Assembly: GCF_008033235.1 (NCBI RefSeq)
Contig: NZ_CP042432.1
Coordinates: 868,001 to 932,000, forward strand
From: Anseongella ginsenosidimutans
GTDB lineage: Bacteria > Bacteroidota > Bacteroidia > Sphingobacteriales > Sphingobacteriaceae
Reading direction: 5' to 3'
Length of the DNA: 64,000 nt
The first letter of the stretch is position 1; each line of letters opens with the position of its first letter. The notes below the pieces were generated by a model. That model was not told where the DNA came from and searched no databases. It worked only from the letters and a program-made list of their open reading frames with translations. Shown piece after piece: positions 1,111 through 57,698 of this stretch. The position numbers were made by a program, and so were the translations under genes.

Positions 1111-1737
1111 ATGGAAAACAATGAAGTTAATGAAGCAGCGCCTAGGTACTATCCAAGGATGACCGCGGAAGAATACCTGGAATGGGAAAGAGGCCAGGAG
1201 TTCAAACATGAATACCATGACGGCGAGATCGTTGTCATGCAGGGAGCGGCTCTTAATCACAATTACGTGAATATGAATCTGATCGGGCCCATTGCCATGC
1301 ATCTGAGGGATAAACCTTGTGATGTGTTTGCGAATGATCTCAGAACGGAGGCCAAAGCGGCAAATTCCTATTATTACCCGGATATTGCCATCGTATGCGG
1401 CGAGCCTGATTCGCCGGATGAAAAACGGGATATGATCTGCAACCCGGCAGTAGTAATAGAAGTGCTTTCTCCGTCCACGAGGTTTTATGACATTCACCGG
1501 AAAAAGCCGTCTTATATGCTTTTGCCTTCCCTGAAAGAATATATTATGGTGGATTCAACGTCTGTCATGGTCAATACTATCCGGAAAAAGCCTGCTGACT
1601 CCCTGGAAAGCGGCGCCTGGGAAAGCGATGTATTAAAAGACCTGTCCGGCCAACTTACTATACCCACGATAGGCCTGTCCATTCCGCTCTCCGAAATTTA
1701 CCGGAAAGTGGATTTTAACCGGCGTTCCAGGCTTTGA
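1111..1737 (+). CDS. Uma2 family protein (DUF820, PD-(D/E)XK-like fold)
   Basis: A 208-residue protein with the Uma2 hallmarks: an N-terminal MTAEEYLEWE segment, the central PDIAIVCGEP strand, and VVIEVLSPST, which supply the Asp and Glu of a PD-(D/E)XK-type site. Uma2 proteins are widespread and often multicopy. Their fold resembles restriction endonucleases but no substrate is established. The ATG at 1111 sits 78 bases after the permease gene. An overlapping frame (932-1162) is ignored because it runs back into the permease. No partner gene adjoins it that would suggest a toxin or defence role. Confidence 0.8.
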   Translation: MENNEVNEAAPRYYPRMTAEEYLEWERGQEFKHEYHDGEIVVMQGAALNHNYVNMNLIGPIAMHLRDKPCDVFANDLRTEAKAANSYYYPDIAIVCGEPDSPDEKRDMICNPAVVIEVLSPSTRFYDIHRKKPSYMLLPSLKEYIMVDSTSVMVNTIRKKPADSLESGAWESDVLKDLSGQLTIPTIGLSIPLSEIYRKVDFNRRSRL

Positions 1738-1755
1738 CGGGAGCGCAATGCAAGT

Positions 1756-2720
1756 TTAATAGATCCGGCCGGGCACCAGGTAATGCTGCACGTAATCGCG
1801 TACTCCTTCTTCCAGGGAATGGAACGCTTTATCATAACCCGCCGAGCGCAGTTTGTTCATTTCGGCTTCGGTAAAATACTGGTATTTATCGCGGATATCC
1901 TCCGGAGTGTCTATAAATTCAATATTTTCGGGACGATCCATTGCGCTGAATGCAGCGCGGACCAGGTCAAGGAACGTTCGCGCTTTACCGCTGCCAAGGT
2001 TGTAAATGCCGGACGGCTTCCGGTGAAGCATAAAGAAAAACAATACATCCACCACGTCCTTTACGTAAATGAAATCCCGCTGCTGCTCCCCATCGCGAAA
2101 ATCAGGATGGTGGGATCGGAACAGCTTCATTTTGCCGGTTTCCCCAATCTGCTTAAAGGCATGGAATACCACCGAGGCCATACGTCCCTTGTGGTATTCG
2201 TTGGGGCCGTACACGTTGAAAAACTTGATTCCCGCCCAGAAAAAAGGTTTTCGTTCCTGCTTCACCGCCCATTTATCAAATTCGTTTTTCGAATCTCCAT
2301 AAGGGTTCAGGGTTGGAGCCGTTCTACTATTTCATGACTGTCCGTATAACCATGCTCGCCCAAGCCGTAAGTAGCGGCCGAAGAAGCATAAACCAGCGGC
2401 AGGCCGAATTCCACGCATAGTTTCCATACTTCCTTGCTATATTGAAGATTCAGGAGGTCGAGCAGCGTTTTATCCGATTCGGTAGTATCGGTGCGTGCGC
2501 CCAGGTGAAAGACAAACTGGACCAGCAGCTGGTTGTCCCGCAGCCATTTAATGAAATACTTCCTGTCAATGCACTGTGAGTACCGTTTGCCCTCAAAATT
2601 CCGGTTCTTCTGCGGTTGGGAGAAGTCGTCGACCAATACCAGGTCATAATAGCCCTCCTCGTTCAACTTAGTAACCATGCTGCTGCCTATAAATCCAGCC
2701 GCACCCGTGATAACGATCAT
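1756..2720 (-). CDS. hldD: ADP-L-glycero-D-manno-heptose 6-epimerase, interrupted by a -1 frameshift
   Basis: HldD converts ADP-D-glycero-D-manno-heptose to the L-glycero form for the LPS inner core. The first piece (2307-2720) begins with the NAD-binding motif TGAAGFIGS and carries the SSAATYG segment. The second (down to 1756) contains FFNVYGPNEYHKGRM and QQRDFIYVKDVV. The first frame stops right after EIVERLQP. One extra G in the GGG run at 2310-2312 (+ strand) would continue it as LNPYGDSKNEFDKWAVKQERKPFF, joining the pieces (321 residues in all). This is exactly what the family has there, including the YxxxK-like region. Both halves are well conserved, so a sequencing error is more likely than decay. 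Confidence 0.85.
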
Positions 2721-2731
2721 ATGAATAATTT

Positions 2732-3634
2732 TTAACCGGCTGCAAAAACGGGCTGCGTTACCGGTTCGATAAGCCCTTTCTTCGCAGCCATGTCGAACAA
2801 TACCTCCACAGCCCGGCGTCCTTCAGGCCCCAAATCTACTGAATACTTATTTACATACAATTCAATATGCCGGTACATAACGGTCTCATCCATTTCCTGG
2901 GCATGGGAACGGATAAATGCCAGCCCCGAGGAGGGATTAGCAAATGCATATTCAATGCTGCGGCGGATCAGCCTGTCTGCTTTGGCCTGAATTTCCGGAC
3001 GGATAGCTCTTTTCACCATGATACCACCCAGCGGAATAGGGCAGCCTGTTTCCTTTTCCCAGAATTCGCCAAGATCCATGACTTTTCGCAGGCCTTTTTC
3101 TTCATACGTAAAGCGATTCTCATGGATGATCAGGCCCAGGTCTATTTCGCCCTTTAACAGGGCTTCCTCAATGCCTGAAAAAACCATTTCCTTCTTGTGT
3201 TTCGCTTCCGGGAAGGCCAGACTTAGCAAAAAATTAGCAGTAGTATAGTGACCGGGTATGCCAATCATTTTATCCTGAAGGCCGGCAGGCTGGGCGGAAC
3301 TTTCGGCAAGCGGAAGATTGCCGTCCCCGGGGATATCCCGATTAGTACTAGGGCTTATATTTGCGCCCGGAGCGGTGATCAGCAGCGGGCCTACGCCAAA
3401 GCCAAGCGCGCTGCCGGCATTGAGCAGGACATAATCTGAGATCACATGCGCAAAAGCATAATAGCTCAGCTTGGTGATGTCCAGCTCTCCGCGAAAAGCT
3501 TTCCTGTTCAGCGTTTCTACGTCGTCGTAAAAAACCTCGAATTCGAGTCCTTCTGTATCGATCTTTCCGTGGATAAGCGCATCGAAAATAAAGGTATCAT
3601 TAGGGCAGGGAGAAAATCCAAGACTTAGTTTCAT
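2732..3634 (-). CDS. mqnD: 1,4-dihydroxy-6-naphthoate synthase
   Basis: MqnD cleaves cyclic de-hypoxanthinyl futalosine to 1,4-dihydroxy-6-naphthoate in the futalosine route to menaquinone. The protein starts LGFSPCPNDTFIF, the typical MqnD opening, followed by KLSYYAFAHV and the PGHYTTANFLLSLAFP motif of the periplasmic-binding-protein-like fold. It is 300 residues, a little long for the family. The surplus is an insert of about 30 residues (roughly 97-125) rich in Ser, Asn, Gly and Pro just before IGIPGHYTT. The mqnB gene lies upstream on the same strand, about 115 bases away, so two steps of one pathway are clustered. Confidence 0.93.
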   Translation of the reverse strand: MKLSLGFSPCPNDTFIFDALIHGKIDTEGLEFEVFYDDVETLNRKAFRGELDITKLSYYAFAHVISDYVLLNAGSALGFGVGPLLITAPGANISPSTNRDIPGDGNLPLAESSAQPAGLQDKMIGIPGHYTTANFLLSLAFPEAKHKKEMVFSGIEEALLKGEIDLGLIIHENRFTYEEKGLRKVMDLGEFWEKETGCPIPLGGIMVKRAIRPEIQAKADRLIRRSIEYAFANPSSGLAFIRSHAQEMDETVMYRHIELYVNKYSVDLGPEGRRAVEVLFDMAAKKGLIEPVTQPVFAAG

Positions 3635-52860: not shown

Positions 52861-52934
52861 ATTAGTGCCCCTTTCGGGAAGGGGCTAAAACGAATCATCA
52901 CAAAAATACGTTAACTTAGTAGAAATTTTTGCAA

Positions 52935-55055
52935 ATGACAAGGTACTTGAAGACGTTAGTGGGAACCACTTTGTTGGTATGTGTGCAACTTACCTCCTGT
53001 TCACAGGGAGCGATCCTGGCCTCCGGCCCTATACAGCCTCTGCCGCAGCATTCATTTATAGCCAGAACTATTTCGAATGCCGCCGCGGTATATCATTATG
53101 AAAAACCCAAGATCAATGATGAATTATCTTCCGTTACATTTAATATGTTCCTGGAAGACATGGACAATAACCGCAGTTTTTTCCTGGACGCGGACATTAA
53201 AAAATTCGAGGCTTTCCGGCACAGCCTGGATGACGCCATGAAAACCGGTGAACTGGAAGTTCCATATGAGATTTTCAATACCTTCACGGAACGGTTTAAC
53301 GAAACCATTGACTTTGTGCTGGCACACCTGGCCGACAGTATCGATTATAATACCAAAGAAACCTTTATTATAGACCGGGAAGAAGAGCCATGGTTTAAAA
53401 GCCCCGAAGAACGGGAGAAGTACTGGAAGGAACGTATCCGCTACGACCTCATTAACCTGAGGCTGTCCAACAGCGATATCGAAAAGAATATCGAAACGCT
53501 AACAAAGCGGTACACGAACATGAAATCGCAATGGTCCAAAATGAACAGCGAAGACGTATTCCAGATTTTCGTGAATTCCTTTTCCGCCGCCATTGACCCC
53601 CATACCCAGTACTTTTCGCCGAAGGACGCCGAGGATTTCCGCATTAATATGTCCAAGAACCTGGAAGGGATCGGGGCGACCCTGCAAACGGACGGCGATT
53701 ATACCGTAGTCCGGCAGGTCGTGAAAGGAAGCCCGGCCGATAAGAGCAATGAAATAAACCCCGGAGACCGGATCGTGGGCGTAGGCCAGGGAAAAGAAGG
53801 AGAGTTTGAAGACGTGGTTGGCTGGCGGATTGATGAAGTGGTGGACAGGATCCGCGGCCCAAAGGGAACCGTCGTCCGGCTTAAGATCGTACCCGCGGCA
53901 GCCGACCTGAGTACGCCTCCGAAGATCGTTTCCATTGTCCGTGACAAAATAAACCTGGAAGACCAGCGAGCTAAGAGCGAAATAAAAGAAGTAGAGCATA
54001 ACGGGAACACGTTCCGCATAGGCGTGATCAGTGTACTGGATTTTTACATTGATTTTGACGCGCTTCGCGCGGGAGATCCCGATTACAACAGCGCCACCCG
54101 CGATGTCAGGAAAGCCCTTGAAGAATTCAAGGCCCAGGGCGGCGTGGATGGCGTGGTTATCGACCTGCGCAATAACGGCGGAGGTTCCCTGAAAGAGGCC
54201 ATTGAGCTGACCGGCCTGTTCATTAAGGAAGGCCCGGTGGTGCAGGTAAAAGATACCCGCAGCCGCATTGAAGTGAACAGGGATGAAGATCCTGCCCAGA
54301 TCTATTCAGGTCCGCTCGCTGTGCTGATCAACCGTTTCAGCGCTTCGGCTTCCGAGATCTTTGCGGGGGCCATCCAGGATTACCAGCGCGGACTTATTAT
54401 CGGCGAACAAAGTTTCGGAAAAGGCACTGTGCAAACCCAGGTGTCCATTAATGACCTTTTCCCCGGAAGCGATGAAAAAATGGGGCAATACAATATTACC
54501 ATCGCCAAATTTTATCGCGTCAGCGGCGGAAGTACGCAAAATAAGGGCGTTATCCCGGATATACTGTTCCCCAGCGCCTTTCCTGCGGAAGAATTTGGCG
54601 AAAGCGCTCAGCCTACCGCCCTTCCCTGGGACCAGATAGAGCCTGCCGATTACCAGCTGGCCGGCAACCTCAGTACGCTGACGCCCGACCTCGAAAAACT
54701 GCACGAAGCGCGGATGGAAACCAGCAAAGATTATGAGTATCTCCTGCAGGATATCAAGGAATTTAAAAAGAAGCTGGAAGACCAAACGGTCCTGCTGAAC
54801 TTTGAACACCTGCAAAAAGAGCGGGAAGAGGATAAATCAGAGCAATTGGCGCGAACCAATGCGTATCGGTCCTCTAAAGGCCTTCCGGTGCTGAGCGAGG
54901 AGCAAGCCGAAAAGGCGGATACCGTTGGCGCAGATCTCAAACCCGATCTTATTATGAAGGAAGGACTGCAGGTGCTTACCGACCTGATAGACCTTCGCGG
55001 GGCCCGCGCCGTGGTGAAGGAAAATGAAATCTTACAACCTGCTGACGTTCACTGA
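52935..55055 (+). CDS. prc: Carboxy-terminal (tail-specific) processing protease, S41 family
   Basis: A 706-residue periplasmic protease of the Prc/Tsp type. A lipobox-like LTSC at about 22 suggests membrane anchoring. A helical N-terminal domain is followed by a PDZ domain (GIGATLQTDGDYTVVRQVVKGSPAD, INPGDRIVGVGQG) and the S41 catalytic core, with Ser in RFSASASEIFAGAIQDY and Lys in GEQSFGKGTVQT. The C-terminal helical region (KEFKKKLEDQ) is also present. The ATG at 52935 is favoured over a TTG at 52929. It overlaps the next gene by 32 bases. Confidence 0.94.
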   Translation: MTRYLKTLVGTTLLVCVQLTSCSQGAILASGPIQPLPQHSFIARTISNAAAVYHYEKPKINDELSSVTFNMFLEDMDNNRSFFLDADIKKFEAFRHSLDDAMKTGELEVPYEIFNTFTERFNETIDFVLAHLADSIDYNTKETFIIDREEEPWFKSPEEREKYWKERIRYDLINLRLSNSDIEKNIETLTKRYTNMKSQWSKMNSEDVFQIFVNSFSAAIDPHTQYFSPKDAEDFRINMSKNLEGIGATLQTDGDYTVVRQVVKGSPADKSNEINPGDRIVGVGQGKEGEFEDVVGWRIDEVVDRIRGPKGTVVRLKIVPAAADLSTPPKIVSIVRDKINLEDQRAKSEIKEVEHNGNTFRIGVISVLDFYIDFDALRAGDPDYNSATRDVRKALEEFKAQGGVDGVVIDLRNNGGGSLKEAIELTGLFIKEGPVVQVKDTRSRIEVNRDEDPAQIYSGPLAVLINRFSASASEIFAGAIQDYQRGLIIGEQSFGKGTVQTQVSINDLFPGSDEKMGQYNITIAKFYRVSGGSTQNKGVIPDILFPSAFPAEEFGESAQPTALPWDQIEPADYQLAGNLSTLTPDLEKLHEARMETSKDYEYLLQDIKEFKKKLEDQTVLLNFEHLQKEREEDKSEQLARTNAYRSSKGLPVLSEEQAEKADTVGADLKPDLIMKEGLQVLTDLIDLRGARAVVKENEILQPADVH

Positions 55056-55986
55056 AAGCGGTCTTTATTGCCCCGCCGGAAATTTTTACATTGATCCTTC
55101 CAGGGCGGTGGATTATGCCGTTATCACCCATGCTCATAGTGACCATGCCTGCCGCGGACACCGCCATTACCTGGCGCATGATCTCTCCGGAAATGTTTTG
55201 CGGCACCGGCTGGGAAGGGCCATTTCCCTTCAAACCGCCTCATATGGCGAGAAAGTTACCCGAAACGGTGTTACGCTGAGCTTTGCTCCCGCCGGCCATA
55301 TTATCGGGTCCGCCCAGGTAAAAATTTCCTTCCGTGGTGAGGTTTGGGTAGTTTCCGGGGACTATAAGCTGGAGGATGACGGGCTTTGCGCTCCCTTTGA
55401 GCCGGTAAAATGCCATGCATTTGTTTCGGAGTCTACATTCGGCCTGCCGCTGTACCGCTGGCAGGCCCAGGAGAGGGTCTTTGACGAGATCCATTCCTGG
55501 TGGAAAGAGAACCGGGATGCAGGGAAAGTATCGGTTTTACTAGCTTATTCCCTGGGCAAGGCGCAGCGCATCCTTCACCGGCTGGATCCTTCAGCGGGAC
55601 CGGTATTCTGCCATAACACTATTGAAGACACAAATGCGATCCTCCGGGACAGCGGGGTGGCGCTGCCGCCTGCGCACCGCCTGAATGAACCTCTCCGGGC
55701 GGGCGGCCTTTTATTATGCCCTCCTAACGGGCTTTCCGTGCTAAACGGAATTCCCGCCGCCGTGGGCAGTTGTTCCGGATGGATGGCCCTGCGCAATTCC
55801 AGGAAATGGCGCGGCATAGACAAAGGTTTCGTTCTTTCGGATCATGCCGATTGGGAGGGCCTGAACGAAGCGATCAATGCTACGGGCGCGGAAAAGGTCT
55901 TCCTGGGGCACGGCTATAGCGCCTCGCTTGCGAGATACCTTCGGGAAAAGGGACTGAATGCCCGGGAGGTGCATGAGATACGATGA
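55024..55986 (+). CDS. MBL-fold exonuclease, ligase-associated type
   Basis: A 320-residue metallo-beta-lactamase-fold nuclease (beta-CASP-like, 'ligase-associated DNA exonuclease'). The metal site is intact: THAHSDHACRGH, then GHIIGSAQVKIS, SGDYKLEDDG and LSDHADWEGL. In many bacteria this gene stands next to an ATP-dependent ligase and an Lhr helicase and works in DNA repair. Here it overlaps the ligase gene by 4 bases (ATGA), so the pair is clearly co-translated, but no Lhr gene follows. Confidence 0.88.
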   Translation: MKSYNLLTFTESGLYCPAGNFYIDPSRAVDYAVITHAHSDHACRGHRHYLAHDLSGNVLRHRLGRAISLQTASYGEKVTRNGVTLSFAPAGHIIGSAQVKISFRGEVWVVSGDYKLEDDGLCAPFEPVKCHAFVSESTFGLPLYRWQAQERVFDEIHSWWKENRDAGKVSVLLAYSLGKAQRILHRLDPSAGPVFCHNTIEDTNAILRDSGVALPPAHRLNEPLRAGGLLLCPPNGLSVLNGIPAAVGSCSGWMALRNSRKWRGIDKGFVLSDHADWEGLNEAINATGAEKVFLGHGYSASLARYLREKGLNAREVHEIR

Positions 55987-57698
55987 ACCGATTCGCCCGG
56001 TTACTGGAAGAACTGGAACTGGCACAAAACGCGGAGGAGCAGGTAACACTACTGATCCGGTACTTCCGTGACCTTCCTGCTGATGAAAAAACAGCTGCTC
56101 TCAGGCTCCTGGGCGGGAACGCTCCCAAGCGCTGCCCGGAGAGCAGGCAATTAAGCGAATGGACGCTTGAACTGTCCGGAATACCTGAGTGGCTTTTCGC
56201 GGAATCCGCCAAGGTAGCTGGTGATGCGGCCGAAACACTTGCCCTGCTGCTCCCTTTTCCCGCGGGGCATGAAAATAAACCGCTTGTTTACTGGTTAGAA
56301 GGGCTGGAGCTACTTCCATTGATGGATGCGGGATTACGCAAAGACTGGATATGCGATTCTTGGCGGGAACTCGGCCCCCGGGAACGCTTTGTCTTCAACA
56401 GGCTCCTATGTGGTTCGCTAAAATCTCCCGTTTCGCCGGGCATACTGTTAACTGCTCTTTCGCAGCTCACGGGAATTGACAGGGCCATCCTCACCTGGCG
56501 TTTCAGCCGGGAAAAAGCCGCCGGGGACGGCGGCGGCGGAAAAGGAACCGGCCTTTCCTACGAGATGCTCGCCCTGAAAGAAAGCCCTGCCGATGCGCAT
56601 GCCCGGCCTTACCCCTTTCCCTGCTGCCCTGTGCTGGAGGCGGAAAAATACGCGCCGGAGCCCCCGCGGGAAAATCGCCTGGCGCAAGAGAACCCGCCAC
56701 AGCAGCAAGAGAGCCCGTTGGCGCAGCAGAACCCATCGCAGCAGGAGAACCCGGCCGCGCACTGGCTCGAAGGCCGGCTTGGCCCCGCCGCCGGCTGGAC
56801 CGCTCAATGGCAATGGGCAGGGATACCCGCACAAATAATACACCGGCAAGGCCGGCTGCATGTCTGGACCGGACGGGAAGAACTGGTAACGGCCAGTTTC
56901 CCGGAACTGCATGCGTTTATTAAACAACTGCCCGATGGAACGGTCCTGGAAGGAGAATTGCTTGGCCTTCAGGAAGGGTTGCTGCAGCCTTCTCCGGATC
57001 TGGAAAGCCGGATCGGGCGAAAATCGCTTCCGAAAAAGCTGCTTGAGCAACTGCCTGCCATATTCCTTGCCACGGACTGCCTGGAATACGAAGGAAAGGA
57101 CCTTCGTCAATTTACAACCGGGGCCCGTCGTGAACGGCTCGAGTCGCTGAGCGAAACGATTAAAAACGATGCTTTCCGGCTTAACCCGCTTATTCCCTTC
57201 AGTTCCTGGGGCCAGCTCGCAGGGCAGCATGAAAAAGCAAGAAGTTTCCGGGCCGAAGGCCTGCTATTGAAAAAGGAAGAAGCATCTGCCCTGGCTGCGG
57301 AAGGATCGCGCTGGAACTGGAAGGCCGCTCCCTATATCATGCGCGGCGTACTCCTTTACGCGCGCAGGGGCGCCGGAACAGAAGTCTACACGCATTTTTC
57401 AATCGGAGCCTGGGAACGGGGGAAACTCATTTCCTTTGCCACGGTAGAATCGGGGCTCAATGAGGAAGAAGCCGGAGAACTTTCGGCCTTTATCCGGGAA
57501 AATTCACTCGAAAAATTCGGACCGGTGCGGACTGTAAAGCCAGGTGTGGTTTTTGAGATTGCATTTGATCGCATTCTGCCCTCCGCCCGGCACCGCTGCG
57601 GGTTCAGGCTGTGTTCGCCTCGTTTGCTTCGCTGGCTCAAAAACACGGCTCCGGATGAAGCAGGCATGCTTGAGACCTTGAAGCTCTTGTGCGAATAA
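55983..57698 (+). CDS. ATP-dependent DNA ligase family protein with degenerate motif I (probably inactive as a ligase)
   Basis: A 571-residue protein of the exonuclease-associated ATP-dependent ligase family. The N-terminal DNA-binding domain (to about 225) and OB-fold end (RHRCGFRLCSPRLLRW) are recognisable. In motif I, where the family has K-x-D-G, it reads WQWAG: Gln277 replaces the lysine that is adenylated, and Ala279 the aspartate. Motif III is EGE instead of DGE. Motif IV EGLLLK is kept. Motif V, WNWKAAP, has lost the first lysine. Just before motif I lies an extra segment of about 35 residues, rich in Gln, Asn, Pro and Glu. The frame is continuous. It is likely a ligase relative with lost catalysis, perhaps retained for DNA binding or scaffolding. 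Confidence 0.85.
   Translation: MNRFARLLEELELAQNAEEQVTLLIRYFRDLPADEKTAALRLLGGNAPKRCPESRQLSEWTLELSGIPEWLFAESAKVAGDAAETLALLLPFPAGHENKPLVYWLEGLELLPLMDAGLRKDWICDSWRELGPRERFVFNRLLCGSLKSPVSPGILLTALSQLTGIDRAILTWRFSREKAAGDGGGGKGTGLSYEMLALKESPADAHARPYPFPCCPVLEAEKYAPEPPRENRLAQENPPQQQESPLAQQNPSQQENPAAHWLEGRLGPAAGWTAQWQWAGIPAQIIHRQGRLHVWTGREELVTASFPELHAFIKQLPDGTVLEGELLGLQEGLLQPSPDLESRIGRKSLPKKLLEQLPAIFLATDCLEYEGKDLRQFTTGARRERLESLSETIKNDAFRLNPLIPFSSWGQLAGQHEKARSFRAEGLLLKKEEASALAAEGSRWNWKAAPYIMRGVLLYARRGAGTEVYTHFSIGAWERGKLISFATVESGLNEEEAGELSAFIRENSLEKFGPVRTVKPGVVFEIAFDRILPSARHRCGFRLCSPRLLRWLKNTAPDEAGMLETLKLLCE

Follow-up and report, generated by a model that had tools for sequence, protein, structure and literature searches.

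A LigB-type DNA ligase gene of Anseongella ginsenosidimutans encodes a protein from which six of ten active-site residues have disappeared, among them the catalytic lysine of motif I, and this protein is almost certainly no nucleotidyltransferase. Its gene is nevertheless open throughout and overlaps that of a ligase-associated exonuclease, and the protein is probably still maintained. We tentatively propose, at somewhat short of an even chance for the mechanism as a whole, that it is a pseudo-ligase which is not adenylated and has been retained as a clamp or scaffold partner of the exonuclease.

The ligase gene of the window, its active site and its predicted fold

The window, by which we mean the whole stretch of 64,000 nucleotides analysed, belongs to a genome assembled in one contig and rated 99.67% complete (G000). 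The gene, hereafter the window ligase, lies in it together with the following features.

52929-55055, + strand: putative S41 (C-terminal processing-type) peptidase gene, an open frame named from its sequence
55024-55986, + strand: MBL-fold ligase-associated exonuclease of 320 aa, scoring 413 bits with TIGR04122 (cut-off 325)
55983-55986, + strand: ATGA in the sequence, shared by the exonuclease stop codon and the start codon of the ligase
55983-57698, + strand: LigB-type pseudo-ligase, 571 aa, as judged from the open frame, the alignment and the count of invariant positions
56619-56795, + strand: expanded Pro/Gln-rich linker, residues 213-271, N-terminal to the catalytic domain

The sequence of the window ligase relates it to the LigB-type ("cisplatin damage response") ATP-dependent ligases, with homology over its whole length. 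With hmmscan it matched PRK09247 at an E-value of 3e-115 and TIGR04120 at 1.4e-100, the scores of 386 and 338 bits falling below the respective cut-offs of 543 and 400. Consistent with the continuous frame noted in the sequence-only reading, all 571 codons are open and the overlapping start is kept, so that neither the broken frame nor the lost start of a pseudogene is seen; codon-position G+C resembles that of the neighbouring genes. The exonuclease, whose metal site had been described as preserved, indeed retains all five motifs (THAHSDH, AGHIIGSAQ, GDY, LSDHADW and HGY). The order S41 peptidase, exonuclease, ligase recurs in 8 of 18 fetched neighbourhoods, and given this ancestral arrangement the window ligase is most simply an orthologue at its old place. 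The 4-base overlap between exonuclease and ligase is also found in the intact relative L070 and in L084 of another genome, G024.

Motif I reads KxDGxR in all 33 intact representatives. The corresponding positions of the window ligase, with the other motifs, are listed below; we take the names Ia and IIIa to be applicable to LigB-type ligases, and residue roles beyond those given in PMC6698739 are likewise our assumption.

56811-56828, + strand: motif I, residues 277-282, QWAGIP against KxDGxR
56868-56879, + strand: motif Ia, residues 296-299, TGRE against SRGE
56943-56957, + strand: motif III, residues 321-325, VLEGE against VLDGE, with E325 kept
57069-57077, + strand: motif IIIa, residues 363-365, ATD against AYD
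57255-57272, + strand: motif IV, EGLLLK, with Glu425 and Lys430 kept
57309-57323, + strand: motif V, residues 443-447, RWNWK against WWKWK
57588-57593, + strand: Arg536-His537 of the motif VI region, kept

Alignment with relatives bears out what had been read from the window alone, namely Q277-W-A279-G at motif I with both lysine and aspartate gone, Glu for Asp in motif III, the loss of one motif V lysine (K445 to Asn, with K447 retained), and the preservation of motif IV and R536-H537. It also extends the damage. The six lost residues are the motif I Lys, Asp (now Ala) and Arg (Arg282, now Pro), the motif Ia Arg, the IIIa aromatic (now Thr364) and the first motif V Lys, and five of these residues are found in all 33 intact representatives, the sixth, the IIIa Tyr, in 32 of them. 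The motif Ia Arg, Arg282, the IIIa aromatic, two residues deleted ahead of motif V and a longer linker had not been on the earlier list. No lysine is available nearby that would align better with motif I: residues 190-330 contain lysines only at 199, 222 and 314, with none from 223 to 313.

In the passages of PMC6698739 that deal with these residues, the motif I lysine is the adenylation site, the aspartate coordinates the step 3 metal, and ribose and phosphate are contacted by the arginine of motif I and the lysine of motif V. We infer that the window ligase is unable to take up AMP and be adenylated. Of the two alternatives offered by the sequence-only reading, a non-catalytic ligase relative or a decaying gene, the non-catalytic part is strongly supported by the sequence, with most of the adenylate pocket dismantled.

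AlphaFold2 with a 37-row alignment predicted a three-domain ligase (pLDDT 88, pTM 0.76) with DNA-binding, catalytic and OB domains in LigB order, from an alignment that contained intact relatives. Archaeal ligases came closest to the model (3rr5, Z 25.0), along with human LIG1 bound to nicked DNA (6p0d, Z 23.1). Since the single-sequence model was uninformative (pLDDT 38), the prediction indicates compatibility with the fold and is not proof of it. Between the DNA-binding and catalytic domains, the stretch from F212 to W272 measures 61 aa, a length that does not exceed 30 in any of 109 intact relatives, and pLDDT falls below 50 at residues 224-235 and 237-250. A tandem repeat was looked for in the linker, and none was detected.

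Degenerate ligases among the relatives

We scanned 399 genomes at the family level and 400 at the order level, two largely overlapping sets. Matches to the window ligase were found in 325 of the 399 at an E-value of 0.001 and in 302 of the 400 at 1e-60, and the best relative among the matches listed from both scans is 46% identical; a relative is also known from Mucilaginibacter straminoryzae. From part of these matches 112 ligase loci were extracted and 106 kept, after removal of five loci shorter than 500 aa (L031, L136, L142, L145 and L147) and one duplicate (L047). KWDG is kept in L047 and in four of the five short loci, while L031 stops short of motif I. A second Bacteroidota family was represented by 13 genomes, eight of them with a match and seven with one over the full protein. 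The resulting set of 113 full-length sequences comprises the window ligase, the 106 relatives and six from the second-family search.

KxDGxR is kept in 110 of the 113, the exceptions being the window ligase, L023 (genome G037) and L157 (genome G455). Among the loci extracted, no lysine-less clade was found in the window's own family, and the single congener examined, G001 (92% complete), has no ligase gene. As to whether Gln/Ala at motif I is common to a clade, no close relative among the sequences examined shares it, but other lysine-less versions occur in the second family, where two of the seven full-length ligases lack the lysine and five (L152-L156) are intact at motif I. A further ligase, L030 from the window's family, is partly degenerate, and we compared the window ligase with these three.

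L023, genome G037, 1483-3072, - strand: open frame of 530 aa, motif I LWEG
L157, genome G455, 1498-3075, - strand: open frame of 526 aa, motif I QWDG
L030, genome G024, 1489-3048, - strand: KWDG kept; motif Ia Arg, E425 and K445 lost

Like the window ligase, L023 and L157 have open frames, lack the motif I lysine and evolve fast. They differ from it in belonging to another family, in their motif I letters, in having no expanded linker, in the presence of the ligase-associated helicase in their genomes, and in scoring 488 and 449 against TIGR04120, above the cut-off of 400. Naming by score would thus label both as active ligases, a warning for annotation, since lysine-less proteins here pass the curated score of an active family. 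In the open-licence literature we found no paper on lysine-less LigB-type ligases. In G024 and G455 the gene immediately upstream of the degenerate ligase encodes the exonuclease, with a gap and no overlap in G455; no exonuclease adjoins the ligase at the G037 locus.

All four degenerate ligases sit on long end branches (window 3.52, L030 3.4, L157 1.67, L023 1.36; median 0.54 over 24 rows). In quick trees of ligases and exonucleases over nearly the same taxa, the paired end branches were 1.55/0.68 for the window, 1.46/0.75 for G024 and 1.04/0.45 for G455, ratios of 1.9-2.3, with the G024 and G455 exonucleases partial and read from a late ATG. The 15 intact cases whose exonuclease branch reached 0.1 or more gave ratios from 0.54 to 1.26. 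The end branches of the window's exonuclease and S41 peptidase are also long (0.68 for the former, 0.75 for the latter), in keeping with a deep lineage, and the excess sits in the ligase.

As to the number of origins, the AU test did not reject a single origin of all four (p 0.215), nor the grouping of the window ligase with L023 and L157 (p 0.184) or with L030 (p 0.415). The ligase tree places the window ligase with its own family (87/90) and L023 with L157 (80/88), neither node being starred, and the exonuclease tree places the window's lineage without resolution. Around EKFGPVRTVKP the window ligase has family-like letters; L023 reads ERFGPVRSV. Because of the conserved gene position, these letters and the ligase tree, we favour at least two origins of degenerate ligases.

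Invariant positions and neutral decay

We defined as invariant the 114 positions conserved in at least 97% of the 33 representatives, which are less than 80% identical to each other. The window ligase breaks 44 of them (41 substitutions, 3 gaps), L023 35, L157 33 and L030 45. In sharp contrast, intact representatives break 0-4 in 33 leave-one-out controls, so the count for the window ligase exceeds chance. In simulations of neutral decay started from five intact genes, about 0.2 substitutions per site were needed to reach a depth of 44 positions, at which 10.9 stops are expected and none of 200 runs stayed open. The window ligase has no stop. An open frame at such a depth of change indicates that the gene is not simply drifting after a sudden loss.

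The positions that survive are not a random sample. All four degenerate ligases keep 44 positions in common where 20.9 are expected, and all four have lost 14 where 1.5 are expected; neither count was reached in 20,000 shuffles, which treat positions as equal in mutability and constraint. Pairwise, the window ligase shares retained positions beyond chance with L030 (p 0.00025) and with L023 (p 0.00005). Hydrophobic residues were replaced by non-hydrophobic ones at 11 of 120 conserved positions, below the 20.5 (13-28) of neutral runs at t 0.2 and inside the neutral range of 10-25 at t 0.15. Other measures are less favourable to selection. The changes at invariant positions have a mean BLOSUM value of -0.39, within the neutral range of -1.29 to -0.25, and the loss of catalytic residues (6/10) is not much above that of invariant positions in general. 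Codon models gave saturated branch lengths; omega = 1 was rejected on the degenerate branches and on a control branch likewise, and we therefore give omega no weight.

The window ligase may have passed through long relaxed selection as a weak ligase before a recent loss of the lysine, and L030 is an example of a relaxed ligase that still has it. Starting from such a relaxed state, the chance of losing at least two of the six remaining catalytic residues while an unselected frame stays open is about 0.13, at 11% change per residue.

Pathway context, rival explanations and known counterparts

LigB-type ligases belong to a cluster of ligase, Lhr helicase, MPE (ligase-associated phosphoesterase) and MBL exonuclease, on which the main paper is reportedly that of Ejaz and Shuman in 2018. 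The window ligase agrees with this cluster's ligase in whole-length homology, in its three predicted domains and in its place behind the exonuclease. It differs in its missing active-site residues, its scores below the curated cut-offs and a linker twice as long, and the window's genome differs in having neither helicase nor MPE: MPE gave no match at an E-value of 0.001, and no ligase-associated helicase scored above the cut-off of 850 bits. The best score, 445 bits, came from a 1445-aa Lhr-type helicase of that genome (L088:4486-8823, + strand), which matches PRK13767 and PRK09751 and fits such other Lhr-type models better than the ligase-associated one. The genome also carries two LigD-type ligase-polymerase genes with KWDG, at L089:3048-5063 (+ strand) and L004:76-2754 (- strand), the latter alone having a 3'-phosphoesterase domain.

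In comparison, 17 of 17 genomes with an intact ligase have helicase and MPE above the cut-offs, and 16 further intact-ligase genomes have the helicase. In the second family the helicase is above the cut-off in three of five genomes with an intact ligase (G448, G454 and G457), with partial matches in the fragmented G458 and G459. Four other genomes (G005, G014, G033 and G036) carry helicase and MPE and show no match to the window ligase, which indicates that the ligase is dispensable in some relatives. A strict coupling of degenerate ligase to helicase loss was considered; it holds for G000 and G024 and is broken by G037 and G455.

Under the mechanism that we propose, the motif losses would leave a protein that neither takes up AMP nor seals nicks and that would still bind nicked or broken DNA. 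Exonuclease and pseudo-ligase would be made together from their overlapping genes, and the pseudo-ligase, acting as a clamp or scaffold, would position or restrain the exonuclease through a presumed contact. Sealing would have passed to other ligases of the cell, for example the two LigD-type enzymes. That the protein is kept at all is favoured by the open frame, by the non-random retention of positions and by fewer hydrophobic losses than in neutral decay at t 0.2; it is weakened by catalytic losses that do not greatly exceed the general ones and by changes no more conservative than neutral. In favour of the clamp role are the preserved motifs of the adjoining exonuclease and the presence of that gene just ahead of the degenerate ligases in G024 and G455. 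The clamp role in particular is weakened by the absence of an exonuclease beside the G037 ligase, and by the absence of helicase and MPE here and of all four genes from the congener, as expected of a dying pathway.

That dying pathway is the main rival, which we regard as unlikely and still ahead of the others: the LigB pathway would be on its way out of the lineage, the ligase dead and only the exonuclease perhaps of any importance. It would account for the missing helicase and MPE, for the lack of exonuclease, ligase, helicase and MPE in G001, for the same want of helicase and MPE in G024 (85% complete) beside a partly degenerate ligase, for a ligase end branch about twice that of the exonuclease, and for the low-complexity expansions in the window ligase. 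It fits poorly with a gene that has neither stop nor frameshift with 44 of 114 positions broken, a state that no neutral run attained, and with the non-random retention across the four degenerate ligases. It fits poorly, too, with G037 and G455, whose ligases are lysine-less in the presence of the helicase, so that loss of the lysine neither requires loss of the pathway nor is only its by-product. The choice left by the sequence-only reading, between a kept protein and a decaying gene, is thereby drawn in both directions, the frame and the retention favouring the former and the missing helicase and phosphoesterase the latter.

A kept non-catalytic protein might also have a job unrelated to the exonuclease, such as nick or end binding for LigD-mediated joining. 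The two LigD-type genes and the G037 ligase without an adjoining exonuclease agree with this; we nevertheless consider it improbable, given the overlap retained in the window and the exonuclease directly upstream in G024 and G455. It is highly improbable that some ligase function persists, with adenylation on another residue or sealing of pre-adenylated nicks only. E325, E425, K430 and K447 are indeed kept, but residues 223-313 offer no lysine, the motif I Asp, the step-3 metal ligand according to the relevant part of PMC6698739, is Ala, and the Arg residues of motifs Ia and I have gone, as has the first Lys of motif V. A sequencing or assembly error is hardly credible. The allele does occur in one assembly only among the genomes searched; yet, beyond the two substitutions in one motif from which the sequence-only reading argued against base-calling error, the differences are spread gene-wide over 44 of 114 invariant positions with the frame intact in a nearly complete one-contig genome, codon-position G+C does not set the gene apart from its neighbours, and the same kind of loss recurs in other genomes.

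The kept clamp or scaffold that we prefer has partial counterparts elsewhere. The sections of PMC9638927, PMC11754673 and PMC10858965 concerned describe human and mouse DNA ligase IV (Lig4) that supports repair when inactive, that is, a structural role without the catalytic lysine; as far as these sections go, those are engineered mutants of an NHEJ ligase, with no homologous cluster or exonuclease partner. The poxvirus processivity factor A20, whose middle domain is described as an inactive DNA ligase in the pertinent part of PMC11142717, resembles the window ligase in that a natural loss of activity left the fold in use as an accessory to a DNA machine, and differs in being viral, in belonging to a polymerase complex and, in that account, in having no such exonuclease link. 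Closest in context are the exonuclease-LigB fusion proteins, described together with the LigB operon in the relevant text of PMC10140301. They set both activities side by side, which suggests that exonuclease and ligase work together; unlike the window pair they form one protein, and the ligase portion assayed in that work had activity.

More cautiously still, we suggest that LigB-type ligases have become pseudo-ligases more than once in Bacteroidota. The survivors would clamp DNA and steer or hold back the MBL exonuclease encoded with them or, in the second family, some other component of the Lhr pathway, as natural bacterial counterparts of the structural role of inactive Lig4. If so, the ligase of a poorly understood repair cluster would have a structural job apart from sealing, and these pseudo-ligases would be ready-made separation-of-function mutants.
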